Origin: Solidesulfovibrio fructosivorans JJ]
GTDB lineage: Bacteria; Desulfobacterota; Desulfovibrionia; Desulfovibrionales; Desulfovibrionaceae
Direction of reading: 5' to 3'
Assembly: GCF_000179555.1 (NCBI RefSeq)
Contig: NZ_AECZ01000003.1
Coordinates: forward strand, 1 to 64,000
DNA: 64,000 nt
The notes under the pieces: model-generated
The model's input: the letters and a program-made list of their open reading frames with translations, nothing else
Database searches by the model: none
What the model was told of the DNA's origin: nothing
Translations under genes and position numbers: made by a program
In this document: positions 43,045 through 60,356 of the stretch, piece after piece
Numbering within the stretch: the stretch's first letter is position 1
Layout of the letters: each line of letters opens with the position of its first letter

Positions 43045-43083
43045 GGCGTTTTCCCTTTAGGTTTGGAAGAGGGGGAAGAGGGT

Positions 43084-43675: not shown

Positions 43676-43732
43676 ATGTCCGTCGCCTCCCTCCCCGTCC
43701 GGCTTCGGCCGGGCCTCCGCTTCAGGCGCGGC

Positions 43733-44674
43733 CTACAGCTTGGGCAGGGTCTTCATGGTGCGGATGTTGTACCAGCGGTCCTCGTCGGCCAGCCGTCCGT
43801 CCCGGAAGGCCTCGGCCACGTCGCGGATGCCGTCGGCCACGCCGTACTTGGGCGTAAATCCCGTGGCCAGCAGCTTGTCGGAATTCTGGCGATAGGAACG
43901 GGGGTCGTTGGACGGCTTGATCTCGATCTCGGCCGGAGCCACCTCCACGATCTTCTTGGCCAGATCGAGGATGGAGATGTTTTCGAAGCCCGCGTTGTAG
44001 ATGCCGGTGTATTTGCCGCCGGCGGCCAGGAAATGCAGGAACACCCGCACGATGTCCTTCATGTGGATGTTGGGCCGGGTCTGGTCGCCGCCAAGGACGG
44101 TGATGTGCTTTTTGGCCAGGGCCTGCATGGTGAGCAGGTTGACGGCCACGTCCAGGCGCATGCGCGGAGAGTAGCCGCACACCGTGGCCGGGCGCACGAT
44201 GGTCAGGGCGAACTTGTCGGCGTAGCTTAAAAGCACCCGTTCGCTGACCATCTTGGTCTTGTTGTAGTCCGAGATGGGCACGCAGGGCAGGTCCTCGGTC
44301 ACTTCCGGCTCGTCCTTGACGCCGTAGACCGAGCCCGAGGAGGCGTGCAGGAACTGCTTGACCCCGCAGGCCACGGCCTTCTCGGCCAGCTTCATGGTGG
44401 CCAGGCAGTTGACCTCCCAGGTCAGTTTGGAATCCAGGTCGCCGCAGGGGTCGTTGGCCACGTTGGCCAGGTTGATCACGGCGTCCACGCCGGCCATGGG
44501 CACCGCGTCGATGTCCCGCGTGTCGCCGCTGATGGCGGTGAGGCGGGGATGTTCGGGGATGTGGCGGCCGAACCAGCCGATGTCGTAGGCCGTGACGTCG
44601 TGCCCCAGGGCGAGGAGTTCCGGAACGAGCACGCTGCCGATATAACCGAATCCGCCGGTGACGAGTATGCGCAT
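43733..44674 (-). CDS. NAD-dependent epimerase/dehydratase (extended SDR)
   Basis: A 313-residue extended short-chain dehydrogenase/reductase, likely acting on nucleotide sugars. It has the N-terminal NAD motif VTGGFGYIGS, the substrate-contact region LHASSGSVYGVK, and the catalytic Tyr and Lys in YNKTK. The ATG at 44674 has AAAAGGAA 7 bases upstream. The context is the envelope region; SDRs of this fold also act as ceramide reductases (CerR) in bacterial sphingolipid synthesis, and a serine-palmitoyltransferase-like gene is 4 kb away, so that is an alternative I consider less likely. Confidence 0.85.
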   Translation of the reverse strand: MRILVTGGFGYIGSVLVPELLALGHDVTAYDIGWFGRHIPEHPRLTAISGDTRDIDAVPMAGVDAVINLANVANDPCGDLDSKLTWEVNCLATMKLAEKAVACGVKQFLHASSGSVYGVKDEPEVTEDLPCVPISDYNKTKMVSERVLLSYADKFALTIVRPATVCGYSPRMRLDVAVNLLTMQALAKKHITVLGGDQTRPNIHMKDIVRVFLHFLAAGGKYTGIYNAGFENISILDLAKKIVEVAPAEIEIKPSNDPRSYRQNSDKLLATGFTPKYGVADGIRDVAEAFRDGRLADEDRWYNIRTMKTLPKL

Positions 44675-44794
44675 GAAAGCTTCCTTTTGGCTGTGTGATA
44701 ATGACGGCGAAGCGTCTGGCCGGGCCATACACCATTTGCGAAACGCGCGCCAGACATGCTACCCGCCACCATCGCGCAAGCAAAGGACGGGAAT

Positions 44795-45739
44795 ATGCGG
44801 GCGATCCGGGACGCGTTGGTCTGGTGCTACTGGCATCCTTTCAAGCGGTTGGTCTGGACCCTGCCGGATGGCGCGGCCCATGCCCTGGCCAGGGGGCTCG
44901 GCCGGGCGCTCGGCCGGGTGCCCAACGCCAGGCTTGCCGGCATGGCCGAGGCGGCGCGCTACGTCCCGGGCGTGCCCGACGATCCCGGGGCGCGCCTTTC
45001 CCTTGCCCGCAAGGCCCTGGTGGAATTTTGCCAGACCGACCTCGAGGCGCTTCTTTTTCCGCGTCTGACCCCGGAGCGCACCGCCGCCCTGGTCGCCATC
45101 GCCGGCCGCGACCGCCTCGACGCCGCCCTGGCCATGGGGCGCGGGGCCATGCTCGCCTTCGGCCATTTCGGCGCCAACCAGATGATCATGCCTGCCATCG
45201 GCCACGCCGGCTACCGCATGTGGCAGCTTTCGGCCCCGGCCACGGTTTTAAACGAAAAGCTGCCCGAGGGGCGGAGCCGGGCGGTGCGCCGCACGCGCGA
45301 GATGCGCTGGGCCCACGAGTTGTCCCTGCCCGTGACCCACGTGAGCGTCTTCGGCAGCCTGCGGGAGGCCTTCACCTGTCTGCGCGGCGGCAATGTCCTT
45401 GGCGTGGCCGTGGACGGCGGCGGCGGGGAAAAACGCGTCGCCGTGCCCTTTCTCGGCCGTACGGCCGCCTTTTCCCTGGGACCGATGCAGCTTGCCGGCA
45501 AGACGGGCTGCGCGGTGCTGCCCTGCTTCATGGAGCGGGCGGCGGATGGCCGGATGACGCTTCGCATCGAGGAGCCGCTGCCCGCGGTCGGGCCCCGGCA
45601 CGAGGACGCCGAGGCGGCGACGGCCCTGTTCGCCGAGCGCCTGTCCCGGGCCGTGATCGCGAGTCCCAGCCATTACCTCTATTTCCTGGCTTTCCGGCTG
45701 CACATGGCGGCAAGCGGCCAGGACCCCTTTTTCGTTTGA
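44795..45739 (+). CDS. LpxL/HtrB-like lysophospholipid acyltransferase family protein
   Basis: A 314-residue inner-membrane acyltransferase related to LpxL/LpxM. The key motif H-x4-D/E reads H-FGAN-Q here (His124, Gln129), so the usual acidic partner is replaced by Gln. Conserved downstream blocks include NVLGVAVDGGGGEKRVAVPF (the V-D-G segment) and GCAVLPCF. The ATG at 44795 has AAGGA 7 bases upstream; an in-frame ATG at 44756 is less likely. It starts the long + strand run of envelope genes and is divergent from the epimerase. If active, the acyl acceptor is unknown; the substitution could mean altered or lost catalysis. Confidence 0.78.
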   Translation: MRAIRDALVWCYWHPFKRLVWTLPDGAAHALARGLGRALGRVPNARLAGMAEAARYVPGVPDDPGARLSLARKALVEFCQTDLEALLFPRLTPERTAALVAIAGRDRLDAALAMGRGAMLAFGHFGANQMIMPAIGHAGYRMWQLSAPATVLNEKLPEGRSRAVRRTREMRWAHELSLPVTHVSVFGSLREAFTCLRGGNVLGVAVDGGGGEKRVAVPFLGRTAAFSLGPMQLAGKTGCAVLPCFMERAADGRMTLRIEEPLPAVGPRHEDAEAATALFAERLSRAVIASPSHYLYFLAFRLHMAASGQDPFFV

Positions 45740-45829
45740 GGGCGCGCGACGGGAACGCCTGATGAAAATCCCTGGGAAGCGGATACGAGGCTGGACAACG
45801 CCGGCCGCCTCCATTACCCAGGGCGGGCC

Positions 45830-47491
45830 ATGCCAATATCCACGACGACCGCCGGCACGCATCCGGCCGCGCCGCCGCAGCCCGGATCCCCGGGTTTTTT
45901 TGCCCGCCTGGACTGGGGCCTTGTCGTCGTTTTGCTCGCGGCCGCCTTTTTGCTGTTCTACAATCTGGGCCAGCGGCCCTTCTGGCAGGACGAGGCCGAA
46001 ACGGCCTGCCTGGCCAGAAACGTCTTGCACTCCGGCCTGCCCTACGCCTCCGACGGGGTCAATGTCGTGTCCCAGGAGGAGGCCCGTGAGTTCGACAAGA
46101 CCGGCGGCTACCTGTGGCGCTGGTCCCCCTGGATTCAGATCTACATGCAGGCGGCGGGCATGGCCGTCGGCGGCATGGACACCGCCCCGGCCCGTTTCCC
46201 CTTCGCCCTGGCCGCGCTTCTGGCCATCTTCTGGACCTACCGGCTGGTGCGCCGCCACTTCGGCGACCGGTCGTGGGCCTTGCTGGCCGCCATTTTGCTC
46301 ACCAGCTGCGTGCCTTTCTTGCTGATCGGCCGGCAGGCCCGCTACTACGCCCCGGGCACGCTTTTCGTGCTGTGGGCCCTGGACGCCTTCTTTTCCGACT
46401 GGCAGCGGCGCTGGGGGCCGTTTTGGGCCATTTTCGCCTCCATGGTCCTGCTTTTTCACGCCAACTATCTGCTCTTTTTGAGCTTCGCCCCAACGGCCCT
46501 GGCCGCCGCCGCCCTGGTCTATCCCGAGCGCATGGCCTGGAAGCGGCTGGGCCTTTTGACCCTGCTCACCACGGTCGTGGCCGTGGTGCCGGGAATCCTG
46601 CTCTACCGCATCGGCCGGCAAAGCGGCATGTTCGACATCCTGCTCGTGCCGGAAAACCTGATGCTCTACTTTGCCGACCTGTGCATGTTCTGTATCCCGC
46701 TGCCCGTATCGGCGGCCCTGGTCTGGCGCTGGCGGGGCTTTTTCACCAGGCTCAGGCGCCCCGACGATCCCGGCGAGACGTTCGTGCTTTTTTCCGCCGT
46801 GCTGATCGTCATGAGCCTGCTTTTTCTCGGCATCGTGCCCCAGCGCTTTTTCCGCTACATCGCCCATCTGCTGCCCCTTTGCGCCATCCTGCTCGCCTGG
46901 TGCGTGCGCCGGCTGTGGGGCTTTTCCCGGCCCGCCTCGGTGATGCTTTTCATCCTGCTGGCGTTTACCAACTGGCTGGCCGTCTACCCCATGGAGCGGC
47001 TCAAGATCGTCAACCGCCCCTGGCAAAACGATTTTCGCCAGCTCACCTCGCTCAATTTTCCCTTGAAGCTCCTCGTCACCGAGCTCGTCTGCGGCTATCC
47101 CGACGTCAACACGAGCATCGTGGAATTTTTCAAGACCCACGCCAAGCCCGGACAGACGGTGCTGGCCGAGTACGGCGATTTGCCGCTGATGTTTTACGTG
47201 CCGGGGCTCAGGGTCCTGGGGGGGCTGCAAGGGCCGGTGCCGCCGGGCACGGTGCCGGACTGGGTGCTTCGACGCCGGGTGGTGCGGGTCAACCGCGACC
47301 GCTTTCTTTTCGGCGCCCGGGAATATACCGACGGCATGGACCTTTCGGGCCGCTACGAACGCGTGCCCCTGTCCCTTCCCGACGAGACCTTCGGCAACCG
47401 CACCGACGACCCCAACCACCACTATTTCATGCCGGTGGAGCCCCCGAACAAGTCGCTGGAAATCTGGCGGCTCAAGGAGCCTCGGTCGTGA
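45830..47491 (+). CDS. GT-C (PMT/ArnT-like) membrane glycosyltransferase family protein
   Basis: A 553-residue polytopic protein with about 11 membrane segments and an extracytoplasmic tail. The first loop carries FWQDEAETACLARNVL, the acidic catalytic-loop motif typical of GT39/GT83 enzymes that use polyprenyl-phosphate sugars. A long C-terminal soluble region follows (about residues 400-553). It is the first of three overlapping genes, sharing GTGA with the next. The sugar and acceptor are unknown. Confidence 0.82.
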   Translation: MPISTTTAGTHPAAPPQPGSPGFFARLDWGLVVVLLAAAFLLFYNLGQRPFWQDEAETACLARNVLHSGLPYASDGVNVVSQEEAREFDKTGGYLWRWSPWIQIYMQAAGMAVGGMDTAPARFPFALAALLAIFWTYRLVRRHFGDRSWALLAAILLTSCVPFLLIGRQARYYAPGTLFVLWALDAFFSDWQRRWGPFWAIFASMVLLFHANYLLFLSFAPTALAAAALVYPERMAWKRLGLLTLLTTVVAVVPGILLYRIGRQSGMFDILLVPENLMLYFADLCMFCIPLPVSAALVWRWRGFFTRLRRPDDPGETFVLFSAVLIVMSLLFLGIVPQRFFRYIAHLLPLCAILLAWCVRRLWGFSRPASVMLFILLAFTNWLAVYPMERLKIVNRPWQNDFRQLTSLNFPLKLLVTELVCGYPDVNTSIVEFFKTHAKPGQTVLAEYGDLPLMFYVPGLRVLGGLQGPVPPGTVPDWVLRRRVVRVNRDRFLFGAREYTDGMDLSGRYERVPLSLPDETFGNRTDDPNHHYFMPVEPPNKSLEIWRLKEPRS

Positions 47492-47931
47492 AGCGCGTAT
47501 TGACCCGGGAGAACGTGGTGCGGCTGCTTTTGCTCGTGGCCCTTGGCGGCACCCTTTACAAAGGTTTCATGAAGACGCCCGAGGCGGCCTCCTGGCTGCG
47601 GCCCCGGGATTTCTTCAACGGGCTGGTCAATGACGGCGAGAACACCGCCATCATGAAGGAGCGCCACCGCGACGTGCTCGAGGCCACGGATAAGGCCGTG
47701 CGCGTGCGCCTGTCCGAGCTGCGCTCCGGCGTGTACAAGCCGGCCAAGGGCTCCCTGGTCGACGAGGAATCGCTCACCCGGGCCATCCGCAAGGACCAGG
47801 CCACCCGCGAACGGGCCGTGGACGACGAGGTGCGGGCCTGGGAAAAGCTTGAGCGGGCCAGACGCCTGGAAGCCGCGCACTGGCGCATGGGCCTTGGCTG
47901 CGCCGAAGCCGGGGAGGGCGGCAAGCCGTGA
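47488..47931 (+). CDS. Small hypothetical protein with N-terminal membrane anchor
   Basis: A 147-residue protein that starts at GTG 47488, overlapping the preceding stop as GTGA, with AAGGAG 8 bases upstream. A short hydrophobic stretch (residues 11-22, VVRLLLLVALGG) is followed by a charged, mostly helical soluble domain (RHRDVLEATDKAVRVRLSEL). I do not recognise the family. Its tight coupling to the GT-C gene and to the next gene suggests a role with the membrane glycosyltransferase, perhaps as an accessory subunit. Confidence 0.6.
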   Translation: MKRVLTRENVVRLLLLVALGGTLYKGFMKTPEAASWLRPRDFFNGLVNDGENTAIMKERHRDVLEATDKAVRVRLSELRSGVYKPAKGSLVDEESLTRAIRKDQATRERAVDDEVRAWEKLERARRLEAAHWRMGLGCAEAGEGGKP

Positions 47932-48455
47932 GTCGTACCGGACGCAACCTCAAGCGGTCGCTTCTCGCCGTGCTGGCCGTGATCGTTCTCGGCGTGGGCG
48001 CGCTTGTCTGGTTCGGGGCCTGGTATTACCCGGCCCTCGGGCTTGCCGGCATTCCCAAGGACGACTACCGCCGGGCCATGGACATCGCCGTGCGGGGCAT
48101 GACCGCCTCGGAGGGGTTGGCCTTCGAGGATTGGGATTTCATGAAATTCCGGCAGGTGGAGCGCGGCGGCGAGGCCTACGCCTGGGGCGCGGCGCGCTGC
48201 CGGGCCAGGGACGGCTCCACCTCCTTTTATTGGGTCTATCTGGAATGGAGCAAGAAGCGCGGCCAGTGGCTGCGCAATTTCAGCGAGGAACTGGCCACGC
48301 CGGACGACGAGATCTATTTCACCCGGACCTCCCCCGGCCAGTTCGGCCGGGCCCGGCTGGCCCTGGGCAAAATCCTCGGCCAGCTTGCCGCCCATGTCCG
48401 GGAAGCCCGCGGCTTCGGCCATAATCCCCAAGACTTGCCAAGCCCCGGCCTTTGA
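47928..48455 (+). CDS. Hypothetical membrane-anchored periplasmic protein
   Basis: A 175-residue protein with an N-terminal membrane segment (residues 11-32, LLAVLAVIVLGVGALVWFG) and a soluble, probably periplasmic domain (DWDFMKFRQVERGGEAYAWG; WVYLEWSKKRGQWLRNF). The GTG start at 47928 overlaps the previous stop as GTGA. I do not recognise it. It ends 125 bases before the alpha-oxoamine synthase gene. Confidence 0.62.
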   Translation: MSRTGRNLKRSLLAVLAVIVLGVGALVWFGAWYYPALGLAGIPKDDYRRAMDIAVRGMTASEGLAFEDWDFMKFRQVERGGEAYAWGAARCRARDGSTSFYWVYLEWSKKRGQWLRNFSEELATPDDEIYFTRTSPGQFGRARLALGKILGQLAAHVREARGFGHNPQDLPSPGL

Positions 48456-48580
48456 CGTATTGGCCGTTTCTCCGGTCATATGCCGGAATGCGGCCTGGCC
48501 AAAAGGCCGCCGGGCGGCGTCACTCTCCCCCCAGGCTTTTACCGTCCGCTTGCAAACCACACGAGGAAGAAACAATCGCC

Positions 48581-49867
48581 ATGACACTGCGCCAACGTTG
48601 CGACCACTTCAATGCCTTGCATTCGAGCATATCCGCCCAGGGGATCAATCCCTATTTCAGGCCCATATCCAAGACTTGGGGCACCGAGGTCGAAGTGGAC
48701 GGCAAGCGTCTGGTCATGATCGGTTCCAACGACTACCTGGGGCTTAGCCATGACCCCCGGGTCATGGACGCCTCGGCCCGGGCCGTCTACGATTGGGGCA
48801 CCGGCCCCGGCGGTTCCCGCTTTTTGAGCGGCAACATGGTGCTGCACCATGCCCTGGAGGAAAGGCTGGCCGCCTTTGTCGGCAAACGCCACGCCGTGGT
48901 CCACGTCACGGGATTTAGCACCAACATGGGGGCGCTCGGCGTCCTGGTCACCCCGGCCGATACCGTCATCTGCGACCGGGAAAACCACGCCAGTATTTTC
49001 GAAGGCATCAAGAACACCCGCGCCCGGCTGGTCACCTTCGCCCACAACGACGCGGCCCAGGCGCGAAAGCGCGTGGAGGACGCCAAGGCCGCCCGGCCCG
49101 ACGGCGACGTGTTCCTGGTCACCGAGGGCGTGTTCAGCATGTCCGGCGAGCTGGCCGTCCTCGACGAGCTGGCCGCCATCAAAGCCGACCATCCCGACAT
49201 CGTCTTTTATCTCGACGACGCCCACGGCCTCGGCGTGTTCGGCCGGGGAGGGCGCGGCGCGGCGGACCATTTCGACATCACCGACAAGGTCGATTTCATC
49301 ATGGGCACCTTCAGCAAGTCCATGGCGTCCATCGGCGGGTTCATCGCCGGCGACGACGAGGATATGCTGCGGTTTTTGCGCTACCAGTCGCGCACCCAGA
49401 TTTTTTCCGCCGCCCTGCCGGCCGCCAACACCGTGGCCGTGCTCACCTGCCTGGACATTTTGGAGCGTGAGCCCGAGCGGGTGGACCGCCTCCACGCGGT
49501 CACCCTGCGCATGCGTCAGGCCTACAAGGATATCGGCCTACGCATCGGCGCCTCGGCCTCGCCGATCATTCCCATCATCATCGGCTCCGACGAAAAGGCC
49601 TTCCAATTTTCGCGCGCCCTGTTCGAGGCCGGCGTCTTCGCCCTGCCGGCCGTCTATCCGGCCGTGCCGCGCGGCCAGGCGCTGATCCGGACCGCCTACA
49701 TGAGCACCCACCAGGACCGGCAGCTCGATTTCGTGCTTTCGGTCCTCGACCGTCTGGCCCGGGAGTTCGGCGTGCGCGAGTGCGACATGGCCGAGGATAT
49801 GGATGCGGTGTGCCCGGATGGGGACGTCGCCGAGGCCTCGGGCCGCTCGAGGCTCTCGTACTTGTAA
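48581..49867 (+). CDS. Serine palmitoyltransferase-like alpha-oxoamine synthase
   Basis: A 428-residue PLP enzyme of the alpha-oxoamine synthase family (SPT, KBL, BioF, HemA). The PLP-binding lysine lies in MGTFSKSMASIGGFIAGD (Lys246). The TFSKS form, rather than the GTLGK/GTLGKA form of KBL and BioF, points to serine palmitoyltransferase. Other marks are GSNDYLGL, the substrate His in RENHASIFEG, and YLDDAHGLGVFG. It would condense an amino acid (probably serine) with an acyl thioester to begin sphingoid base synthesis. The ATG 48581 has AGGAAG about 11 bases upstream. Neighbours: an ABC/TolC/HlyD exporter and a GNAT-fold acyltransferase. Confidence 0.7.
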   Translation: MTLRQRCDHFNALHSSISAQGINPYFRPISKTWGTEVEVDGKRLVMIGSNDYLGLSHDPRVMDASARAVYDWGTGPGGSRFLSGNMVLHHALEERLAAFVGKRHAVVHVTGFSTNMGALGVLVTPADTVICDRENHASIFEGIKNTRARLVTFAHNDAAQARKRVEDAKAARPDGDVFLVTEGVFSMSGELAVLDELAAIKADHPDIVFYLDDAHGLGVFGRGGRGAADHFDITDKVDFIMGTFSKSMASIGGFIAGDDEDMLRFLRYQSRTQIFSAALPAANTVAVLTCLDILEREPERVDRLHAVTLRMRQAYKDIGLRIGASASPIIPIIIGSDEKAFQFSRALFEAGVFALPAVYPAVPRGQALIRTAYMSTHQDRQLDFVLSVLDRLAREFGVRECDMAEDMDAVCPDGDVAEASGRSRLSYL

Positions 49868-49931
49868 AGCGCCCCTGCCTCCGGTATAGGCGCGGGAGCT
49901 CCTTATTCTGGGACGCCTCCCGGTACACAGC

Positions 49932-51185
49932 ATGGCTATTGGAAAACGAAAGAAGATAACCGTCGCGGAACTCGACCGCATTCGGCGTCGCGGCGCCGGC
50001 CCTATGCGGTATTACGACCTCGTGCGCGTCAGCGTGCGCGAGGTCGTGCGCAAGCGCCGACGCTACATCGGCGTTATGGCGTCCATTGCCCTTGGCATGG
50101 CGGGGTTTATCGTCATCATCACCATGGGCAACGACCTCAAGAAAAATTTCAACAACGACCTCGACTTGCTCGGCGGCGCGACCATCATCAACGTGATGTT
50201 CGAGCAGCAGCCGCTGGAGCGCCAGGAATGGTTTCGCGACCGGACCCTGGACGCCCTGGCCCGCATTCCGGGCGTTTCCGACATCACCAAGGTGGCGCTG
50301 AAAACCAATGCGCTGACCACTTGGCACGACAGGATTTTCGGCTTCAACCTGGTCGGTTGCGAAGCCAATTATTGGAAGGTCTTTTCCTTCAACGCCGCCG
50401 AAGGCCGTCTTTTCGACGAGCGGGACATCGAGGAAGGGGCGCGCGTGTGCGTGGTGGGCGTGGACCTGGCCCGCCAGATGTTCGGCGCGGGCAAGGACGC
50501 CATCGGCAAGATCCTGTCCATCGACGACAACCTCTATACCGTCGTCGGCATTCTCGGCGGCGTGCGCGCCGGCGACCGCAGCCAGTTCGTGTTTCTGCCC
50601 ATCTCCACGGCCATGGCCCGGGTGGTGAACATCTCCATGCCCTACAGCGCCTACGTGCGTTGCGCCACATGGGACGACGTGGCCCCGGTGTCCAAGGCCA
50701 TCCCCGGCGTGGTCAAGGCCAATCAGATCGACCGGGGGCTGCGGGTCAACGTGGCCTGGGAGCCCCTCAAGCAGGTGCAGCGCATCTTCTGGTGGGTGGA
50801 GCTTTTCATCTACAGCTCCATTGTGGCCACCATGATTCTCGGCGGCTTCGGCATCTGGAACATCATGATGGCCACGGTCACGAGCCGCACACGTGAAATC
50901 GGCCTCAAAAAGGCCATGGGCGCCCTGGATACCGACATCCTTTACCAGTTTCTTTTCGAGGCCCTGTGCGTCACCCTGACCTCGTCCGTGGTGGGTGTGG
51001 TCCTCGGCCGGGTGGGCATCGAATACATGAGCCGGATGCTCGGCTCCAGGCCGCCGGAAGGATTGTTTTTCGTCTGCTTGTTGCTGGGGCTTGTCTTCGC
51101 CGCCGTCCTCGGCATCGGCGCCGGCCTTTATCCCTCCATCCGGGCCAGCCGGATGCAGGTCGTGGATGCCATGCGCTATGAGTAA
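49932..51185 (+). CDS. MacB/FtsX-type ABC transporter permease
   Basis: A 417-residue inner membrane permease with the MacB/LolC topology: TM1 near residues 45-68, a large periplasmic domain (about 70-285), then three membrane segments (about 290-410) including FSSIVATMILGGFGIWNIMM-type sequence and the conserved TSRTREIGLKKAMGA loop that contacts the ATPase. It lacks a fused ATPase, which is supplied by the next gene, overlapping by 8 bases. The ATG at 49932 has no strong Shine-Dalgarno, and an ATG at 50004 (MRYYDLVRVS) is an alternative. Such permeases act mechanically on lipids, peptides or lipoproteins in the periplasm. Confidence 0.9.
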   Translation: MAIGKRKKITVAELDRIRRRGAGPMRYYDLVRVSVREVVRKRRRYIGVMASIALGMAGFIVIITMGNDLKKNFNNDLDLLGGATIINVMFEQQPLERQEWFRDRTLDALARIPGVSDITKVALKTNALTTWHDRIFGFNLVGCEANYWKVFSFNAAEGRLFDERDIEEGARVCVVGVDLARQMFGAGKDAIGKILSIDDNLYTVVGILGGVRAGDRSQFVFLPISTAMARVVNISMPYSAYVRCATWDDVAPVSKAIPGVVKANQIDRGLRVNVAWEPLKQVQRIFWWVELFIYSSIVATMILGGFGIWNIMMATVTSRTREIGLKKAMGALDTDILYQFLFEALCVTLTSSVVGVVLGRVGIEYMSRMLGSRPPEGLFFVCLLLGLVFAAVLGIGAGLYPSIRASRMQVVDAMRYE

Positions 51186-51882
51186 TCAATACGATCATAC
51201 CGACGACAACGCGCTTGTCATCGACATCAACGGGCTGACCAAGACCTACAGCACCGGGCTCGAACCGATTTCGGTGCTCAAGGACGTCAATCTGCACGTG
51301 CGGCGTGGGGAAATGGTCGCGGTCATGGGGCCGTCCGGTTCGGGCAAATCCACCCTGCTTTTCTGCCTGGGGCTTTTTCAGCCCCCGTCCACGGGATCCT
51401 ACAAGGTGGCCGGGGTGGAGGTCTTGACCCTGTCCCGCGACCAGCAGGCCATTTTTCGCCGGGAGATGCTCGGATTTGTTTTTCAGACTTGTGACCTGCT
51501 TGAAAACTCCACCGTGTACGAGAATCTGGAACTGCCGCTGATCTACGCCGGCGTGCGCCGCAGGGAGCGGCCCGAACGGATTCGCGAGGCGCTTTCCATG
51601 GTCAACCTCGAACACCGCATCCACCAGCCGTCCAACCGGCTGTCCGGCGGTGAGCGGCAGCGGGTGTCCATCGCCAGGGCCCTGGTCAACGAACCGGAGT
51701 TTATTTTGGCGGATGAGCCCACCGGCCAGCTTGACCGGGAAAACAGCCTGCGTGTATTGGAGTATTTTACAAAGATTACGGAAGAAGCCCGCACGGCCAT
51801 GGTCGTGGTCACCCACGACGCGATGACGGCCGAGCATTGCACACGCACGTGCGTCCTGACGGACGGCCGCCTCAACGGTTGA
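51178..51882 (+). CDS. MacB/LolD-type ABC transporter ATP-binding protein
   Basis: A 234-residue ATPase with Walker A GPSGSGKST (about residue 53), the signature LSGGERQRVSIARAL and Walker B FILADEPT, followed by the switch His in VVVTHD. The Q-loop is VFQTCDLLENSTVYENLELP. The ATG at 51178 overlaps the end of the permease by 8 bases. It ends 21 bases before the outer membrane protein gene. It pairs with the permease to power an envelope-spanning exporter. Confidence 0.95.
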   Translation: MSNQYDHTDDNALVIDINGLTKTYSTGLEPISVLKDVNLHVRRGEMVAVMGPSGSGKSTLLFCLGLFQPPSTGSYKVAGVEVLTLSRDQQAIFRREMLGFVFQTCDLLENSTVYENLELPLIYAGVRRRERPERIREALSMVNLEHRIHQPSNRLSGGERQRVSIARALVNEPEFILADEPTGQLDRENSLRVLEYFTKITEEARTAMVVVTHDAMTAEHCTRTCVLTDGRLNG

Positions 51883-51903
51883 ACGCTCGACGGGGAGGAG
51901 CGC

Positions 51904-53574
51904 ATGACCAGGGAATTTACCAACGGACATCGGATCGATGCGTCGCAGGGGGGCGTTGTCCGCCGTTTTCGGGCGGGACGCGCGACGGTGCGGGCCATGG
52001 CCGTGGCGCTGTGTCTGGCACTGATATTCGCCTGCCTGCCGGCCTGGGCCGGCTCGTCCCGGTATACCAAGGACAAGGGCGTCCCCGCTGCGGCTCCGGC
52101 CGCGTCGTCTGTTTCGGCGCCCGCGCCGAAGGCCGCCGCCAAGGCGTCCGGGGAAGAGCCGGCGCCGAGTTTCGCCAAAGCCGCCGGGGGACTCGCCCTG
52201 GGCTCGACCACGTTGCGTTCGCCCGCCGACTTCCAGGAATGCGTGCGCGTGGCCCTGAGCCAGTCGCCGCTTTTGACCAAAAGTTCCATCGAGATCGAAT
52301 CCAGGCGCCTGGACGTGGGGGATGCCTACTCCCAGTACATTCCCACTATCATCATGAGCACGACCTTCTACCTGCGCCTGCCGGAGTATAAAAATACGGC
52401 CGCGCCCACGGCTTGGTCGTCGGTCATGCAGAACGCCTCGTCCAACCCCACCCAAAACCTTTCCAATTCCATCTCGGCGGCCAACGCCGTCTACTCGGGC
52501 AACTCCAACAACCGTAACCGCAAGACCTACGACCTGAACTTCTCCACAGGAGCCTGGAACCCGCTTTTGACCGCTTTCGAGGTCCAGGCGAAAAAAGAGA
52601 TGGTCAACATCGCCGTTCTGTCCCACCTCAAAGTCATCGACGAGGGGCTCAAACGGCTCGGCACCACCTTTTTGCAGCTCGGCATGGTCGAAAAAATGTT
52701 GAAGCTGTCCAAGGAACGGGAAGATCTGGCCGTCAAAAACCTCGAGTACGTGAAAACCAAGGCCGGCCTCGGCCAGGGCGCCCAGCTCGATGTGCGCATC
52801 GCCGAAACGCGCATCAACATGGCCAAGGCCGAAGCGGAAAAAATGCGGACCACCCGCAGCGTGCTCCAGGACGAGATGAAGTTCATTATGGGCATCCCCT
52901 TTGTCCAGAAAATCAATCTCGACCTCACCAACGCCCCGGGCCAGGTTCTTGAGGACTTCAACCCGGCCTCGGTCACCGATGAGCGGCTGCGCAAGCATTC
53001 CTTCAAACTGCGCATCCACGATTACGAACTTTCGTTGCAGCGGAAAAACATCGCCCTGTCCTATATTCACTTTTTGCCGACCTTCTCTTTCGGCTTCACC
53101 TCGGTGTCCACGCTCAACAACACCTCCTACAAGGAGGACACCTCGGCGCTGCCGTTCATGTATCCTAACCTGTCGTTCAATTTCCCCTTCGACTGGTGGA
53201 CTAAAAGCCGCGACGTGAGCCGGCAATACAAGAAGCTGGCTCAAAAAAACGTCGAGGGGCGCAATCTGGAATTCACCCTCATGAGCGAGTTCCAGCAGGC
53301 CCTGGCCAAGCTGCGTTCGGCCAATTCCGACGTCAAATTCGCCAACTCCACGATGGAGTTGCAAAAGCTGACCACACAGCAGGCCCAGTTCCGGTTTGAA
53401 TCCGGCCAGGCCGAATACGACGCCATCGTCAAGGCCATGGCCGACTACCTGGACAGCCGGCAGACCTTGATCACGAAGGAATACCAGCGCGACGTCGACA
53501 TGCTCGAGGTCCGGTCCATCTCCGGCGACTTCCAGGACCGCTACATCAACGCCACTGTCATGGAGAACATCTAA
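51904..53574 (+). CDS. TolC-like outer membrane efflux protein
   Basis: A 556-residue outer membrane factor. A signal peptide (residues about 28-49, AMAVALCLALIFACLPAWA) is preceded by a long basic N-terminus. Next is an Ala/Pro-rich linker (residues 57-85), then two tandem efflux-type coiled-coil repeats (about 105-540). GGGGAGGAG precedes the ATG. It is followed without a gap by the HlyD-like adaptor. Together with the permease, ATPase and adaptor it makes a complete tripartite MacAB-TolC-like system. Confidence 0.88.
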   Translation: MTREFTNGHRIDASQGGVVRRFRAGRATVRAMAVALCLALIFACLPAWAGSSRYTKDKGVPAAAPAASSVSAPAPKAAAKASGEEPAPSFAKAAGGLALGSTTLRSPADFQECVRVALSQSPLLTKSSIEIESRRLDVGDAYSQYIPTIIMSTTFYLRLPEYKNTAAPTAWSSVMQNASSNPTQNLSNSISAANAVYSGNSNNRNRKTYDLNFSTGAWNPLLTAFEVQAKKEMVNIAVLSHLKVIDEGLKRLGTTFLQLGMVEKMLKLSKEREDLAVKNLEYVKTKAGLGQGAQLDVRIAETRINMAKAEAEKMRTTRSVLQDEMKFIMGIPFVQKINLDLTNAPGQVLEDFNPASVTDERLRKHSFKLRIHDYELSLQRKNIALSYIHFLPTFSFGFTSVSTLNNTSYKEDTSALPFMYPNLSFNFPFDWWTKSRDVSRQYKKLAQKNVEGRNLEFTLMSEFQQALAKLRSANSDVKFANSTMELQKLTTQQAQFRFESGQAEYDAIVKAMADYLDSRQTLITKEYQRDVDMLEVRSISGDFQDRYINATVMENI

Positions 53575-54525
53575 ATGCGGCAGCTTGTCACGCTTTTGGC
53601 CGCCATCTGCCTGCTGGCCGCAAGCACGGCCGGCATGGCCCAGGACAAGGCTCCGGACGGGAAGCAGCCCGCCAAGCAGGAGACGCCCGACTCGTTTCGG
53701 CCCGCGACGATCAATTTTTCCGGCAAGCTCTACAGCCCGGTCAAATTGTCTGTGTTTTTGCCCTATAACGCAAAGATAACGGCCCTTTCCGGGAAGATCG
53801 GCCAGCAGGTCAAACGCGACGACATCCTGGCCCGTTACGAGATCCCCCTTGAAACGCGCATGGACGAGAAGACCAAGCTCTCACCGGCCAACATCAAGGA
53901 AATCGAGTACAAGATAGCCATGGCCGACAAGGAGATTGATCGCCTTTCCGCCAAGGCCAAGGAACTCCAGGCCATGAGTCAGCGCAACATGGCCTCCCAG
54001 CAGTCCCTGACCATGAACTCCAAGGAGATCGAGGTCTACCGCAAGGAAAAGACCTCCCTGGCCGAGCAGTTGACCCTGGCCCGCGAGCTCCTGTCCGATC
54101 ACGTGGAGCTGGCCGAGGACCGCTTCGGCAAGGCCGCGGGTGTGGGCAAGATGCCCAAGGACGGCATCATCAAGGCCCCGACCGACGGCTATGTCATGTG
54201 GATGAATCCGGAGCTGCGCCTCGGGGTCAAGCTGGCCAAGGACGCCGAGCTGTTCCAGGTCGGCAAGCTCAACCCCATGATCATCCGGGCCCAGGTCCAT
54301 GAGATCGAGGCCCAGAAGCTCAAGGAAGGCGAGGCGGCCACCGTCACCTTCGACTCCATGCCGGGCAAGACGTATTCCGCCACGGTGTCGCGCATCCCCT
54401 GGGCGCCCATTCCCTCTACCCTGCAGCAGCCCTCGTATTACGACGTTGAGTTGACCATTCCCAACCCGACGCTGGAACTCAAGGAAGGCCTCAAGGGGCA
54501 GATCACCATTCAGCCCGACAAATAA
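53575..54525 (+). CDS. HlyD/MacA-like periplasmic adaptor protein (copy 2)
   Basis: A 316-residue secreted adaptor: signal peptide (MRQLVTLLAAICLLAASTAG, cut near MAQ), a lipoyl-like half motif (KITALSGKIGQQVKRDD), a helical hairpin (about residues 105-185) and C-terminal beta-barrel domain. It starts immediately after the TolC-like stop. It is a diverged paralogue of the protein at 38506-39525, matching best in the beta-barrel part near QVHEIEAQKLKEGEAATV. Its neighbours make it the bridging subunit of the exporter. Confidence 0.88.
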   Translation: MRQLVTLLAAICLLAASTAGMAQDKAPDGKQPAKQETPDSFRPATINFSGKLYSPVKLSVFLPYNAKITALSGKIGQQVKRDDILARYEIPLETRMDEKTKLSPANIKEIEYKIAMADKEIDRLSAKAKELQAMSQRNMASQQSLTMNSKEIEVYRKEKTSLAEQLTLARELLSDHVELAEDRFGKAAGVGKMPKDGIIKAPTDGYVMWMNPELRLGVKLAKDAELFQVGKLNPMIIRAQVHEIEAQKLKEGEAATVTFDSMPGKTYSATVSRIPWAPIPSTLQQPSYYDVELTIPNPTLELKEGLKGQITIQPDK

Positions 54526-54536
54526 GTCTGTATAAC

Positions 54537-55679
54537 ATGCCTGATTCCGATCTCGTCGTTTCGCGCGCGGCCGGTCCGGCCGACATGGACGCCTTTATTC
54601 GTTATGCCTGGGAAATCTATCGCGACGACCCCCTTTGGGTGCCGCCGCTGATTCCCATGCAGGAGGAATTCCTGGACCCGGCCAGGGGCCCCTTTTTCGA
54701 GTTCGGCCAGGCCGAATATTTTCTGGCCCGCCGGAACGGTCGGGTGGTTGGCCGTATTTCCGCTCATGTCAGCGGCCTCTACGAGAAATACCACGACAAC
54801 GAGACCGGGTTTTTCGGTTTTTTCGAATGCGAGAACAACCGTGAAACCGCCCATGCCCTGTTCGATGCCGCCGCCGGCTGGGTACGGGCGAAGGGCAAGG
54901 TGCGTCTTCACGGGCCGCTGTCGTTCGCCATCTATGACGAGGTCGGCCTGCTCGTGGACGGGTTCGATACCCCGCCGGCCATGATGCAGACCCACAACCC
55001 CCGCTACTACGAGGATCTCGTCACCTCCTGGGGGTTCACCAAGACCTTCGACTGGTACGCCTACAGAATCAGCCGCAAGCCGATGCACGACGCGGAAAAG
55101 CTGGCAAAATTGCGCGACAGCATCTTAAAGCGCCAGAAGTGCACGATCCAACCCATCCCGCGCAAGGAGTTCGCCAAGCGCGGCCCCCAGATCAAAGAGC
55201 TTTTCAACGACATCTGGAGCAAGAACTGGGGCCATATTCCGCTGACCGACCGCCAGTACCAGGACCTCTTCGTCACGCTCCAGCCGTTGGTGCGGCCGGA
55301 CCTCGAGACCATGATCGTCGACGACGAAGACAACATCGTGGCCTTCTCCGTGGTGTCGCCGGACATGAACCGGCCGGTCAAACGCTTCAACGGCAAGTTC
55401 GGCTGGTGGCAGAAACTGCAACTGGTCTGGGACTGCCGGGTGAAGCCGCTGACCCACTGCCGGGCCGTCATCATGGGCGTGGCCCGCTCCCATCAGTGGA
55501 AGCGGCTGCACCACGCCATCATACTCAACATCGTGGTCAATTTTCTCCAGAACCACCCCAAGATGGAATATTGCGACTGTTCGCTCATCCCGGAATCCCT
55601 GGAGCAGTGGAACAAGACGCTCATGGATTACGGCGGCGAGCGCTACAAGGTCTTCCGCCTTTATGACCGGGACATCTGA
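54537..55679 (+). CDS. GNAT-fold acyltransferase, candidate bacterial ceramide synthase-like
   Basis: A 380-residue protein of a GNAT-like family that begins with DMDAFIRYAWEIYRDDPLWV-PPL, a hallmark of a group of acyl-CoA acyltransferase-like proteins often near serine-palmitoyltransferase genes in other bacteria. The first part has a GNAT core (YFLARRNGRVVGRISAHVSG); the second has SFAIYDEVGLLVDG and EYCDCSLIPES. It lies 11 bases after the adaptor gene and its 3' end overlaps the next gene by 17 bases. Proposed role: N-acylation of a sphingoid base. This is inference from family and context; an unrelated N-acyl or O-acyl transferase is possible. Confidence 0.6.
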   Translation: MPDSDLVVSRAAGPADMDAFIRYAWEIYRDDPLWVPPLIPMQEEFLDPARGPFFEFGQAEYFLARRNGRVVGRISAHVSGLYEKYHDNETGFFGFFECENNRETAHALFDAAAGWVRAKGKVRLHGPLSFAIYDEVGLLVDGFDTPPAMMQTHNPRYYEDLVTSWGFTKTFDWYAYRISRKPMHDAEKLAKLRDSILKRQKCTIQPIPRKEFAKRGPQIKELFNDIWSKNWGHIPLTDRQYQDLFVTLQPLVRPDLETMIVDDEDNIVAFSVVSPDMNRPVKRFNGKFGWWQKLQLVWDCRVKPLTHCRAVIMGVARSHQWKRLHHAIILNIVVNFLQNHPKMEYCDCSLIPESLEQWNKTLMDYGGERYKVFRLYDRDI

Positions 55680-57354
55680 TGCGCCGGCCCGCCGTGCGGA
55701 CTGGTTCGTCGTCTCTTTTCTGACCCTTGTCGTTTTTGCCGTGGCCCATCGCCACGGCTTGGCCTCGCCCTTTATCGTCAACGACGACACGCGTCAGCAG
55801 CTTTTCTGGATGGCCCGCTGGCTCGACCCCGCCCTTTATCCGTCCGACCTGCTGACGCGCTACGCCGCCGCTTATGTGCCGGCCGGGATCAAGGCGCTCT
55901 ATTTCCTGGCCGCCAAGGGTCTGGGGGTGGGGCCGCTCGTCTTTTCCAAGTGGCTGACCGGCGGTCTGCTGCTGGTTTTGGCCCTGGCTTTTTTCGGCCT
56001 TGGCGCAACCCTTGAGGGCCGCGTCCTGGGCTATGCCTGCGCCGCCATGGCCTGGCTCATGCCGTTTTTCCTGAAGAACATCTCCGGCGGCCTGTCGCGG
56101 GGATTCGCCGCGCCGCTTCTCGCGCTGTTTCTGCTGGCCTGGATGCGCCGTTCGGGCCTTGGCATGGCCGTTATCCTCCTGCTCCAAGCGGTTTTCATTC
56201 CCTATATCGCCGCGCTTTGCGCCGGGTGCGCCTGTTTGGACGCGGTGTTCGCCCGCATCCAGGGCCGGCCCGACGCGCCGTTTCCGGTGCGCCCCTGGCA
56301 TGGTCTGGCCCTTTTCGCCGCGGCCGGCATTGTCTGGTCCTTCGACCATACCCTGACGACCTCGGGGTTCGGTCCCCTGGTCGGGCATGCGGCGCTTGCC
56401 GCCGGGCCCGAATTTTCCGCCGCCGGCAGGCTGGAGCTCTATCCCCTGCCCAATCCCTTTTTCGATCTGGTCTATTGGCCCTTCGAGAGCATCGGCCTGT
56501 TTCTCGACATCGGCCTTGTCGCCGGTATCGTAAGCCTTGTCGTCCTGTTGCCCATCGTCATCATCGGCGCCCGGCGCGCCCCCTGGCCGGCCCTTCTGGC
56601 CAAGTGCCGCCCGGTCGGCGCGCTGCTTGTCGGTTCGCTGCTCTTGTACATTTTGGCCCGGATCGTGGCGCTGAAGCTCTTCGTGCCGGACCGCTACATT
56701 TCCTACACCATCAATGTGGTCTACGCCCTGGGCCTGGCCGTGGTCTTGCGCTATGCCTTGGCCGACATTTTAAAGCGCCCGCTGTCTCGGGTGTTGCTCC
56801 TGCTCGTTGCGGCCGCGCTCGGGGCCTGGCGGCTGACCGACGTCGGGCTTTACGACTATCGGGCCGACGCGCCGCTTTATGCCGCCGTGCGGGAGCTGCC
56901 CAAGGACGCGCTTGTCGCCGGCAATCCCGAACTCCTCGACGACGTGCTCACCTTCGGCCGGCGCGACGTCCTGGCTTCGTATGAACTGGCCCACCCCTGG
57001 AGCGTGGGCTACTGGGAGCGGTACTATCCGCGCCTGGCCCATCAGGCGGCGGCCTATTACGCCAAGGATGCCGGCACGGTGCTCGAATTCGCCAAGGCCT
57101 ACGGCGTCACGCACATGGTGGTGCGCGACGCGGACTTGACCGGCGCGGCCATCGCCAGGGGACCGCTTTTCGCGCCCTTTGACGCCCGTATTCGGGAACT
57201 GGCCGCCAAACCCGGCAAGTTCGTCCTTCTCGACGCGGCCAAATTCCCCTATACCAGCCCCGAACCCGGCGTGCGTCTGGTGGATTTGCGGCCGCTCGTG
57301 GCTGCGGCGGACGCGGCGCGCCTCGACGCCGGAAACCCCTCATCCGGAAACTGA
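55663..57354 (+). CDS. Polytopic membrane protein, GT-C-like, unknown specificity
   Basis: A 563-residue protein with about 10-11 membrane segments and a soluble C-terminal domain (about residues 400-563). An early loop contains FIVNDDTRQQLFWMARW, an acidic DD motif like that of GT-C glycosyltransferases. The ATG at 55663 overlaps the acyltransferase gene by 17 bases. It is followed by a GT2 enzyme that may supply a polyprenyl-phosphate sugar donor. No defined family is recognised beyond this topology. Confidence 0.68.
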   Translation: MTGTSDAPARRADWFVVSFLTLVVFAVAHRHGLASPFIVNDDTRQQLFWMARWLDPALYPSDLLTRYAAAYVPAGIKALYFLAAKGLGVGPLVFSKWLTGGLLLVLALAFFGLGATLEGRVLGYACAAMAWLMPFFLKNISGGLSRGFAAPLLALFLLAWMRRSGLGMAVILLLQAVFIPYIAALCAGCACLDAVFARIQGRPDAPFPVRPWHGLALFAAAGIVWSFDHTLTTSGFGPLVGHAALAAGPEFSAAGRLELYPLPNPFFDLVYWPFESIGLFLDIGLVAGIVSLVVLLPIVIIGARRAPWPALLAKCRPVGALLVGSLLLYILARIVALKLFVPDRYISYTINVVYALGLAVVLRYALADILKRPLSRVLLLLVAAALGAWRLTDVGLYDYRADAPLYAAVRELPKDALVAGNPELLDDVLTFGRRDVLASYELAHPWSVGYWERYYPRLAHQAAAYYAKDAGTVLEFAKAYGVTHMVVRDADLTGAAIARGPLFAPFDARIRELAAKPGKFVLLDAAKFPYTSPEPGVRLVDLRPLVAAADAARLDAGNPSSGN

Positions 57355-57372
57355 ACACAACTGGCGGGAATC

Positions 57373-58338
<966 letters not shown>

Positions 58339-58369
58339 GGCAAAGTGGAGGCGGAGAGGCCTCCGGCGG

Positions 58370-58403
58370 CCGGGGGAAACTTTTTGAAAAAAGTGTCCCC
58401 CGG
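58370..58403. repeat. GC-clamped palindrome between GT2 and asnB copy 1
   Basis: CCGGGGGAAACTTTTT and AAAAAAGTGTCCCCCGG form a 34-base hairpin with one mismatch, followed by the family flank CCCCCTTCAAAAACTTTTCA. It sits between co-directional genes 76 bases before asnB. The preceding CCTCCGGCGGC is shared with the copy at 61143. Confidence 0.75.
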
Positions 58404-58478
58404 ACCCCCTTCAAAAACTTTTCAAGGGGTGGGGGCTTGCATTGGTGAAGCGGCATTTGAGGGTAAAAGAGTAGGCGT

Positions 58479-60356
58479 ATGTGCGGCATCTGCGGCTTCG
58501 TCGGACAAGGGGATGCGGCGGCGCTGTCCCGCATGAACGCCACCCTCGCCCGGCGCGGCCCGGACGGCGAGGGGACCTATGCCGACGCTTCGGCCGGGGT
58601 GCGCCTGGGCCATCGCCGGCTCGCCATCATCGACATCGCCGGCGGAGCCCAACCCATGGGCACTTCCGACGGCGACTTGGTCGTGGTCTACAACGGCGAG
58701 ATCTACAACCACGCCGCCTTGCGCGAGGAGCTTGTCGCACGGGGCCACCGCTTCGTTTCGGACCACTGCGACACCGAAGTGCTGCTCCACGGCTGGCGGG
58801 AGTGGGGCGAGGACCTGCCGAAGCGGCTTAACGGCATGTGGGCCTTTGCCCTCTACGACAAGCCGCGCGGCCTGCTCTTCTGCTCCCGCGACCGGTTCGG
58901 CAAAAAGCCCTTCTTCTACGCCGCGCGTCCCGGTTTTTTCGCCTTCGCCTCGGAATTGACCGCCCTGGTCGCCCACCCCGCTCTGGCCGGCGCGTCCATC
59001 TCCCGGACCGCGCTGCGCAAATATTTCGCCTACGGCTTCATGCCCGCCCCAAACGCCCTCTACGCCGGCACGCACAAGCTTCCCGGCGGCGAAAACCTCC
59101 TTGTCGACGTGCGCGACGGCTGCGTGCGCCGCAAGCGCTGGTGGGCCTTTTGCCTGGAACCGACGGACGTTCTTCCGGCCGATCCCGAACGGGAATGGGG
59201 TGAGCGCATCGTTTCGCTTCTCGACGCGGCCGTTTCCCGCCGTCTCATGTCCGACGTGCCCTTGGGCGTGTTTCTCTCCGGCGGGGTGGATTCCTCGGCT
59301 GTAACCGCCCTGGCCGCCCGGCATGCGCCCGACATCGCCGCCTTTTCCATCGGCTTCGACGACCCGTCCTTCGACGAATCGGACAAGGCCGTGCAGGCGG
59401 CCTCCTTTTGCAACGTCGCGCACCATCTGACGCGTCTGACCCTTGCCGACGCGCTGGCGCTTTTGCCGGAAATCGTCGGCCGGCTCGACGAGCCCATGGG
59501 CGACGTGTCGCTTTTGCCCACCGCGCTCTTGTGCCGGGAGACGCGCAAACAGGTCACGGTGGCCGTCGGCGGCGACGGCGCGGACGAGCTTTTCGCCGGT
59601 TACGACCCTTTCCGGGCCCTGCGCGCCGCCGAACTCTATTCCCGCATCGCTCCAAAGCCGCTGCACAAGGCCCTGGCCCTGCTTGCCGCCCGCCTGCCCG
59701 TGGGCCACGGCTACATGGCCGCGTCCTTTCGCATAAACCGCTTTCTGCGGGGACTCTCGTATCCGCCGCGCCTGTGGAACCCGACTTGGCTCGGTCCGTG
59801 CGACCCGGCCGGAATCGCGGAGCTCTTTCGTGAGCCCGTCGATCCCGAGGAGCTCTACAGCGAGGCCGTGGCTGTCTACGAGGACTGCCCGTCCACGGAC
59901 ATGGTGGACAAGACCCTGGAATTCTATACGCGCCTGTATTTGCAGGACGACATCCTGGTCAAAACCGACCGGGCCGGCATGATGCATTCCCTGGAGGTGC
60001 GCGCGCCGTTTCTGGACATCGAACTGGTGGATTTCGTGCGCACCATTCCCAGCCGCTACAAGTTCCGCCACGGCACCACCAAGTATATTCTGAAAAAATC
60101 CCTGGAACGGCTCTTGCCGCGCGACATCATCTATCGCAAAAAACAGGGCTTCGGCGTGCCCATCGGCCGTTGGCTGGCCGATGGCGCGCTTGCCATGGGC
60201 GCGGCGTCGCCGGTCGAGACGGGCCTCGATGCCGGCTTTATCGAGGCAAGCCTGCGCGAACACCGGGACGGCCGGGCCGATCATCGTCTTTTTCTCTGGA
60301 ATCTCTGGGTGCTGCGGCACATGGACCTGGGCGGAGGGGCCCTTGGAACGCGATAA
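58479..60356 (+). CDS. asnB: Asparagine synthase (glutamine-hydrolysing)-like amidotransferase, copy 1
   Basis: A 625-residue AsnB-family protein with an N-terminal glutaminase domain (catalytic Cys2 in MCGICGFVGQG; RRGPDGEGTYAD) and a C-terminal synthetase domain with the ATP-pyrophosphatase motif VFLSGGVDSSAV (about residue 265). Such proteins in envelope loci often amidate sugars rather than make asparagine. It is about 45% of the way into a run that ends with a second copy. The ATG is the only one that leaves Cys2 in the catalytic position. The 3' end overlaps the TTG start of the methyltransferase by 14 bases. Confidence 0.92.
   Translation: MCGICGFVGQGDAAALSRMNATLARRGPDGEGTYADASAGVRLGHRRLAIIDIAGGAQPMGTSDGDLVVVYNGEIYNHAALREELVARGHRFVSDHCDTEVLLHGWREWGEDLPKRLNGMWAFALYDKPRGLLFCSRDRFGKKPFFYAARPGFFAFASELTALVAHPALAGASISRTALRKYFAYGFMPAPNALYAGTHKLPGGENLLVDVRDGCVRRKRWWAFCLEPTDVLPADPEREWGERIVSLLDAAVSRRLMSDVPLGVFLSGGVDSSAVTALAARHAPDIAAFSIGFDDPSFDESDKAVQAASFCNVAHHLTRLTLADALALLPEIVGRLDEPMGDVSLLPTALLCRETRKQVTVAVGGDGADELFAGYDPFRALRAAELYSRIAPKPLHKALALLAARLPVGHGYMAASFRINRFLRGLSYPPRLWNPTWLGPCDPAGIAELFREPVDPEELYSEAVAVYEDCPSTDMVDKTLEFYTRLYLQDDILVKTDRAGMMHSLEVRAPFLDIELVDFVRTIPSRYKFRHGTTKYILKKSLERLLPRDIIYRKKQGFGVPIGRWLADGALAMGAASPVETGLDAGFIEASLREHRDGRADHRLFLWNLWVLRHMDLGGGALGTR

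Follow-up and report, generated by a model that had tools for sequence, protein, structure and literature searches.

The window analysed here is a stretch of 64,000 nucleotides from contig NZ_AECZ01000003.1 of Solidesulfovibrio fructosivorans JJ (assembly GCF_000179555.1, Desulfobacterota), and the element of interest is a cassette of six genes located between positions 48581 and 55679. These genes are arranged head to tail on the plus strand, with intergenic gaps of 64, -8, 21, 0 and 11 bases. They encode an alpha-oxoamine synthase resembling serine palmitoyltransferase (SPT), a MacB-like ABC permease, a separate ABC ATPase, a TolC-like channel, a HlyD/MacA-like adaptor and a tandem-GNAT acyltransferase. 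A previous inspection of this DNA, called below the sequence-only reading, had described six adjacent genes with small gaps or overlaps, and all of them are indeed present in the translations and in the family searches. The gene row extends past the acyltransferase: the gene of a polytopic, GT-C-like membrane enzyme overlaps it by 17 bases and is followed, after 18 bases, by a GT2 glycosyltransferase gene, which a gap of 140 bases separates from an asparagine-synthase-type gene starting at 58479. The balance of the sequence comparisons presented below tilts slightly towards a locus that would make and export an N-acylated sphingoid-type lipid, glycosylation being no necessary part of this claim.

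The genes, their linkage and their co-occurrence can be observed directly in other genomes. Among 395 Desulfobacterota genomes, a permease of at least 450 bits (next score 371) was found in 17 and a synthase of at least 692 bits (next 495) in the same 17, the cut-offs for the permease, synthase and GNAT counts having been set at score gaps after the scores were seen. The two genes are adjacent and co-directional in all 17 carriers, which represent 11 genera and three family codes. The pump and synthase genes are inseparable in these genomes and, given this adjacency, the six-gene arrangement is not due to chance. Besides the window, all 16 cassette regions (L126-L141) have the synthase, permease, ATPase, TolC-like and HlyD-like genes together. 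The conservation of the synthase-pump neighbourhood, which the sequence-only reading had put forward as a check, is borne out. By eye, the cassette synthases seemed to exclude second-tier synthases, an impression given no weight as evidence. The GNAT subfamily (at least 525 bits, next 410) is present in 13 of the 395 genomes, all of them among the 17 cassette carriers (Fisher p 5.6e-13; the p values given here are computed at the genus level and ignore the kinship between genera). Its gene lies on a contig other than that of the cassette in G102, G197, G224 and G315, and a copy located beside the cassette in G249 is cut by the contig end. The region L135 ends within its GNAT gene.

In 59 relatives, the permease (at least 469 bits, the rest at most 151) and the synthase (at least 497 bits, next best 340) were detected in the same 20 genomes, here too with limits placed at the gaps once the scores were known. 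The family of the GT-C-like enzyme (E 1e-10) is found in these 20 as well, with fragments in G002, G013 and G027, and the GNAT in 19 of them and in one further genome, G016. Fourteen of the 20 carriers belong to a single genus. The synthase and the permease are found together in seven of 34 genera; seven genera have the synthase, seven the GNAT and six both (Fisher p 3.5e-05). A scan of named genomes, based on two short peptide patterns and the permease alignment and therefore not exhaustive, gave at least 25 loci, from which L097 and L098 were dropped as partial permease matches (32% and 27%). The synthase is directly upstream of the permease in 17 of the remaining 23 (cut by the contig start in L087), and in L086 and L090 the permease is at a contig edge, so that the upstream gene cannot be judged. 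All 23 loci come from Desulfobacterota or Deltaproteobacteria groups, and the permeases are 86-92% identical in the named Solidesulfovibrio and Desulfovibrio relatives. These named loci overlap the 395-genome set, the contigs of L080 and L128, for instance, being of equal length, and neither count can be taken as independent of the other. The features of the locus are collected in Table 1.

Table 1. Genes of the cassette, its downstream extension and possible upstream accessories (positions in the window)
Feature	Position	Strand	Characteristics
Alpha-oxoamine synthase, SPT-like	48581..49867	+	Aminotransferase class I/II fold; pyridoxal phosphate (PLP) lysine in TFSKS
MacB-like ABC permease	49932..51185	+	Pfam MacB_PCD 105 bits, FtsX 55 bits; periplasmic core domain
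Separate ABC ATPase, LolD/MacB/DevA kind	51178..51882	+	ABC_tran 112 bits; Walker A and LSGGE; ATG start at 51178
TolC-like outer-membrane channel	51904..53574	+	Pfam OEP 83 bits, two stretches
HlyD/MacA-like periplasmic adaptor	53575..54525	+	HlyD_D23 48 bits, HlyD_3 42 bits
Tandem-GNAT acyltransferase with DDPLWVPPL, sister subfamily of bacterial ceramide synthase	54537..55679	+	Homology, predicted fold
Polytopic membrane enzyme, GT-C-like fold	55663..57354	+	NDDxRQQ after first membrane segment; predicted structure
GT2 glycosyltransferase, ArnC/PgfS kind	57373..58338	+	NCBIfam PRK10714 215 bits (under cut-off); two C-terminal membrane segments
PMT_2-type membrane glycosyltransferase, upstream, possible accessory	45830..47491	+	PMT_2 31 bits, cut-off 26
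175-residue protein, one N-terminal membrane segment, possible accessory	47928..48455	+	No Pfam match

The family placement of the synthase was established by profile, structure and tree comparisons. Twelve NCBIfam families matched this protein, the CFB-group SPT model being the highest (404 bits); the others include TIGR01825 of the BioF/Kbl family (332 bits), BioF (322), glycine C-acetyltransferase (314 and 259) and the autoinducer synthase (197). In a sequence search of the PDB, the SPT structures 3a2b and 8guh came out at 319 bits and the next chain at 245, with the cysteate fatty acyltransferase 28eh at 207 and CqsA at 97. A tree of 33 rows unites the 13 cassette synthases in a single clade (support 100/100), grouped with the SPT rows (99/95); a Priestia protein whose function is unknown falls in this group too, and the CFB SPTs are linked with a support of 89/75. 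When other Desulfobacterota enzymes were included (42 rows), BioF, KBL and four unassigned paralogues split from the cassette and SPT rows (97/97). Both trees rule out an assignment of the synthase to BioF or KBL, and the SPT-type enzyme suggested by the sequence-only reading agrees with this phylogeny. On the basis of these comparisons the synthase is probably SPT-like in activity.

The acyltransferase is less readily recognized by family models. Acetyltransf_1 is its only Pfam match, below the cut-off at 17.7 bits, and a PDB sequence search returned only two matches (E 0.24 and 0.58). Its AlphaFold model (predicted local distance difference test, pLDDT, 86.6) matches tandem GNAT folds. A TBLASTN search of plasmids gave 44 records with E values down to 3e-63, six of which were opened, chosen because a synthase was suspected nearby from the synthase search or from the organism. 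The GNATs of these six clusters are 29-36% identical to that of the window over 96-99% of its length. In Rubrobacter and Streptomyces the homologue directly adjoins an oxoamine synthase and is followed by a CerR-type short-chain dehydrogenase/reductase (SDR); in Aureispira it adjoins an oxoamine synthase. In Roseomonas, Sphingomonas and one Escherichia coli record, it can be observed near an oxoamine synthase in larger clusters with an acyl carrier protein, an SDR and LptF/LptG. The homologue of the E. coli record (L042, positions 1-7116) is YghO, located beside an acyl carrier protein, an oxoamine synthase, an SDR, an acyl-AMP ligase and LptF/LptG. Two GNATs that looked stand-alone (L026 and L027) had suggested an enzyme unrelated to the pathway, an idea that was dropped as their genomes encode a synthase and a pump elsewhere. 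The GNAT is probably the N-acyltransferase that would act on the product of the synthase.

The transporter genes provide a full tripartite set, with a MacB-type permease, an ABC ATPase, a HlyD/MacA adaptor and a TolC channel encoded together. The permease has four predicted membrane segments, with hydrophobic stretches at residues 46, 285, 340 and 377, and reaches 121 of the 966 bits required by the NCBIfam MacB model. The ATPase scores under all the relevant cut-offs (LolD 217 bits, MacB 209 against 966, DevA 169 against 295.8), and so does the adaptor (MacA 38, DevB 32 against 129). By sequence, this pump is a distant relative of MacAB-TolC and DevBCA, and not DevBCA itself. According to PMC5985334, MacB-type transporters act by mechanotransmission on periplasmic substrates and are not thought to carry them across the inner membrane. 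In Anabaena, the MacB-type DevBCA-HgdD system, with separate permease and ATPase, is described as the exporter of heterocyst glycolipids (PMC6161253, PMC5985334). A literature search, largely without subscription journals, showed no paper tying a MacB/TolC-type pump to a sphingolipid synthase among the titles listed. A search on sphingolipids in Desulfovibrio, with subscription journals mostly outside its coverage, gave nothing on the subject by title. The sequence-only reading had presented the coupling of synthesis to such a pump as new: the linkage with the synthase holds, but lipid export by MacB-type systems is already known from DevBCA-HgdD. It appears reasonably likely, from the gene linkage, that the pump exports the product of the synthase and GNAT.

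A different cargo was also considered, namely another product of a glycan locus, such as an exopolysaccharide precursor, a peptide or a lipoprotein, the pump being merely co-transcribed with the lipid genes. Polysaccharide-type neighbours are present in the window, with Poly_export at 39682 (79.5 bits), a weak Wzz match at 40549 (21.3 bits, under cut-off), the asparagine-synthase-type gene at 58479 and a GT1 at 61320, but among the 16 other cassette regions none matches the 39682 or 40549 genes and only one matches 58479. A second-tier permease group is likewise found beside glycosyltransferases and without synthase (L142 and L143); both of these loci encode a GT21-like enzyme (Glyco_transf_21 by its L028 relative), which counts against the idea of a glycan cargo. 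With the permease next to the synthase in all 17 carriers, from 11 genera, such a cargo is improbable. Eleven genomes, all sharing a single Desulfovibrionaceae genus code, have the second-tier permeases (337-371 bits), and in the two that were opened an ATPase gene and GT21-like and GT1 genes adjoin.

The product of the gene that follows the GNAT has no match in Pfam or NCBIfam. Its AlphaFold model (pLDDT 83.8) gave 24 PDB matches with Foldseek at E values of at most 0.001 (best 3e-07), ArnT being next at E 0.007. By title, these matches comprise oligosaccharyltransferase complexes, translocon assemblies, PglB, AglB, DPY19, AftA, ALG12 and AftD; the template-modelling scores, taken by query, are only 0.42-0.53, with root-mean-square deviations of 8-18. 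All 12 aligned relatives keep the motif NDDxRQQ unchanged. GT-C enzymes have a catalytic acidic residue in the first extracytoplasmic loop, and the position of this motif after the first membrane segment suits such a role; its sidedness and catalytic function are putative. Polyprenyl-phosphate glycosyltransferases of the ArnC kind make the usual GT-C donors, and the neighbouring GT2 enzyme is a possible supplier of such a sugar. Glycosylation of the lipid by the GT-C-like enzyme is a tentative assignment that falls just short of being favoured.

On the basis of this gene content, the chemical steps and the pump substrate can be proposed as follows. Condensation of a fatty acyl thioester with serine, or else with alanine or glycine, by the PLP enzyme would give a 3-keto long-chain base, which the cytoplasmic tandem-GNAT would N-acylate into a 3-keto-ceramide-like lipid. 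This lipid would be flipped to the periplasmic face by a flippase outside the present gene set and, where the GT-C enzyme is present, could be glycosylated there with a polyprenyl-phosphate sugar provided by the GT2. The MacB-like permease and ATPase, the HlyD-like adaptor and the TolC-like channel would then expel it by mechanotransmission, as DevBCA-HgdD does with heterocyst glycolipids, which are polyketide-derived. The order of making, flipping, glycosylating and exporting would fit a synthase and a GNAT placed in the cytoplasm, a GT-C enzyme that faces the periplasm and a pump of the MacB type. With no clear CerR detected in the genome of the window or in the 16 related cassette regions, the keto group may be kept as it is or reduced by some other enzyme.

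A diffusible product would be made by the same two enzymes if they gave an N-acyl-aminoketone signal or an antibiotic-like metabolite, with the pump as its efflux system. The oxoamine synthase family does include autoinducer synthases such as CqsA, and MacB-type pumps are described as exporters of various small molecules (PMC5985334). The autoinducer-synthase model nevertheless scores less than half as high as SPT on this synthase, and the GT-C-like enzyme, which accompanies the synthase and permease in their 20 carriers among the 59 relatives, would rather go with a membrane lipid, even if no more than eight of the 16 wider regions match it; this alternative is highly improbable. The likelihoods attached here to the sphingoid lipid and to its alternatives are not exclusive of each other, and their total may differ from one.

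Several observations weigh against a sphingoid lipid pathway of this type. The synthase is under every NCBIfam cut-off for SPT (CFB 404 of 640 bits, beta 336 of 500, alpha 235 of 670), and a tree with the cassette clade as the first branch of the SPT side is not rejected in the 42-row comparison (p-AU, from the approximately unbiased test, 0.54). As these cut-offs are missed, and as nested and basal placements are both compatible, the enzyme is named SPT-like. A tree of 18 rows places the GNAT of the window in a clade of Desulfobacterota with 10 members (100/100), outside the canonical ceramide synthase rows, represented by the Roseomonas and Sphingomonas cluster proteins standing in for the Caulobacter protein; the clade is also apart from two CerR-linked Desulfobacterota rows. 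The GNAT is linked in nine and the GT-C-like family in eight of the 16 cassette regions besides the window, and three cassette carriers (G334, G394 and G412) have only GNAT relatives of 366-368 bits. The genome G016 has its GNAT without the cassette; G027 has no GNAT match and its synthase is in pieces, on other contigs than the permease. At least 2.5 kb are available upstream of the permease in L089, L091, L092 and L094, four of the 23 named loci, with no synthase there. Finally, CerR queries (E 1e-5) gave no match in any of the 16 cassette regions, in contrast with seven of ten hand-picked non-cassette synthase loci (L146-L155).

The ceramide synthase proposed by the sequence-only reading is retained in part: the GNAT is homologous over its full length to those found in sphingolipid clusters and accompanies the synthase across genomes even where the two genes lie apart, but it forms a separate clade. 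The absence of CerR and the missed SPT cut-offs would also suit a synthase making a sulfonolipid from cysteate, or another non-sphingoid aminoketone lipid, on which the GNAT and the pump would act. Moreover, 1-deoxyceramides and sulfono-1-deoxyceramides of the Black Sea are reported as correlated with Desulfobacterota and/or Bacteroidota (PMC11334938). The closest structures are nevertheless those of SPT (319 bits against 207 for 28eh), active-site specificity not being readable from such scores, and a sulfonolipid or related product is considered unlikely.

The reductase assigned by the sequence-only reading was the SDR encoded at 43733. This gene is on the strand opposite to the cassette, and the proposal was rejected on its low scores: 75.6 bits over positions 3-219 of the 322 of a CerR-type model, and 64 bits with its best partner. 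Among the eight SDRs taken from loci of sphingolipid type or next to a GNAT, pairwise scores range over 62-206 bits, each SDR having a partner of at least 139 bits. The best CerR-model match of the whole genome covers part of the model only (107 bits). There is no sharp score limit for CerR: in the congeners G006 and G008, unlinked matches of 159 and 155 bits cover nearly the full length, and cassette-free genomes reach 221 bits. The LpxL-like gene at 44756, to which the sequence-only reading gave a part in decorating the lipid, has no support as a member, since none of the 16 wider cassette regions matches it. A GNAT and a CerR-type SDR can be observed upstream of the synthase and pump in the cassette L028 (same place as L088). 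Upstream of this cassette, L028:1569-14138 also encodes a 2431-residue polyketide synthase (PKS)-like protein, a phosphopantetheinyl transferase, a GT21-like transferase and a radical SAM protein. The PKS-like protein has ketosynthase, acyltransferase, acyl carrier, ketoreductase, dehydratase and nitronate-monooxygenase-like domains, and a PKS-fed sphingolipid pathway is possible in this organism. In L154, from one Desulfobacterota genome, a synthase and a CerR-type SDR are accompanied by low-scoring matches of the LptF and LptG kind (67 and 60 bits).

The cassette can be compared with several known systems. The Caulobacter-type locus (Spt, bCerS, CerR, AcpR, AasR and LptF2/LptG2/LptC2), to which the clusters L037, L038 and L042 are related, likewise combines an SPT-like synthase, an N-acyltransferase and ABC-driven envelope transport (PMC11324152, PMC11087976). 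The window cluster differs from it in having no CerR, acyl carrier protein or acyl-AMP ligase, in its MacB/HlyD/TolC-like rather than Lpt-like transport, and in the added GT-C-like enzyme. A ceramide line dedicated to the Desulfobacterota could be imagined, with a lipid that a new GT-C family would glycosylate on the periplasmic side in many of them and that a MacB/HlyD/TolC pump, in place of the Lpt-like module of proteobacterial sphingolipid clusters, would bring to the outer membrane or out of the cell. As CerR is missing from the cassettes, such a ceramide would remain 3-keto or be reduced by some other enzyme; this extended view is doubtful. DevBCA-HgdD shares the separate MacB-like permease and ATPase, the MacA-like adaptor and a TolC homologue (HgdD), its lipid substrate being known (PMC6161253, PMC5985334). 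The window sequences are distant from it (DevA 169 bits, DevB 32 bits), its channel gene belongs to the cassette, and lipid synthesis starts from an oxoamine synthase. SgaAB of Pseudomonas fluorescens, described as a two-gene cluster for PKS-derived sphingolipids, also has an oxoamine synthase with SPT homology (PMC12134224); the L028 cassette resembles it in encoding a PKS-like protein, whereas the window cassette has none. Bacteroides-like trios of SPT, GNAT and CerR found in other Desulfobacterota (L146, L147, L148, L150, L151 and L155) follow the same three-enzyme logic. They differ in their CerR, in their synthase clade and in having no exporter-gene matches beside them.

In 2024, the passage of bacterial sphingolipids from the inner to the outer membrane was stated to be unknown in two papers (PMC11087976, PMC11324152), the second of which proposes Lpt-like proteins as transport candidates. 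A pump tied to an SPT-like synthase in all 17 carrier genomes provides a concrete candidate for this export that can be deleted, and some of the anaerobes carrying it are in culture collections (S. alcoholivorans DSM 5433). If the proposal is true, sphingolipid export would rely on different machines in different bacteria. In view of the export already known for heterocyst glycolipids, the cassette would be a variant that couples a MacB-type pump to an SPT-like synthase. A sphingolipid pathway that lacks a linked CerR, and a family of GT-C-like enzymes outside Pfam and NCBIfam, are further suggested by the locus.

Some features of the surroundings complete this description. Homologues of the two possible upstream accessories were matched upstream of the cassette in Desulfovibrionaceae-type loci only, each in three of the 16 wider regions, and a GT2 gene of the 57373 type is found downstream in Desulfovibrionaceae relatives. 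Further upstream in the window, the product of 37214-38602 matched no Pfam family. The G+C content is 0.59-0.62 across the pump genes (50001-56000) and 0.64-0.71 in the flanking 2-kb blocks (40001-50000 and 56001-64000). The asparagine-synthase-type gene ends at 60356, and a second copy, 36-41% identical, lies further downstream in seven of seven congener regions and in L025.

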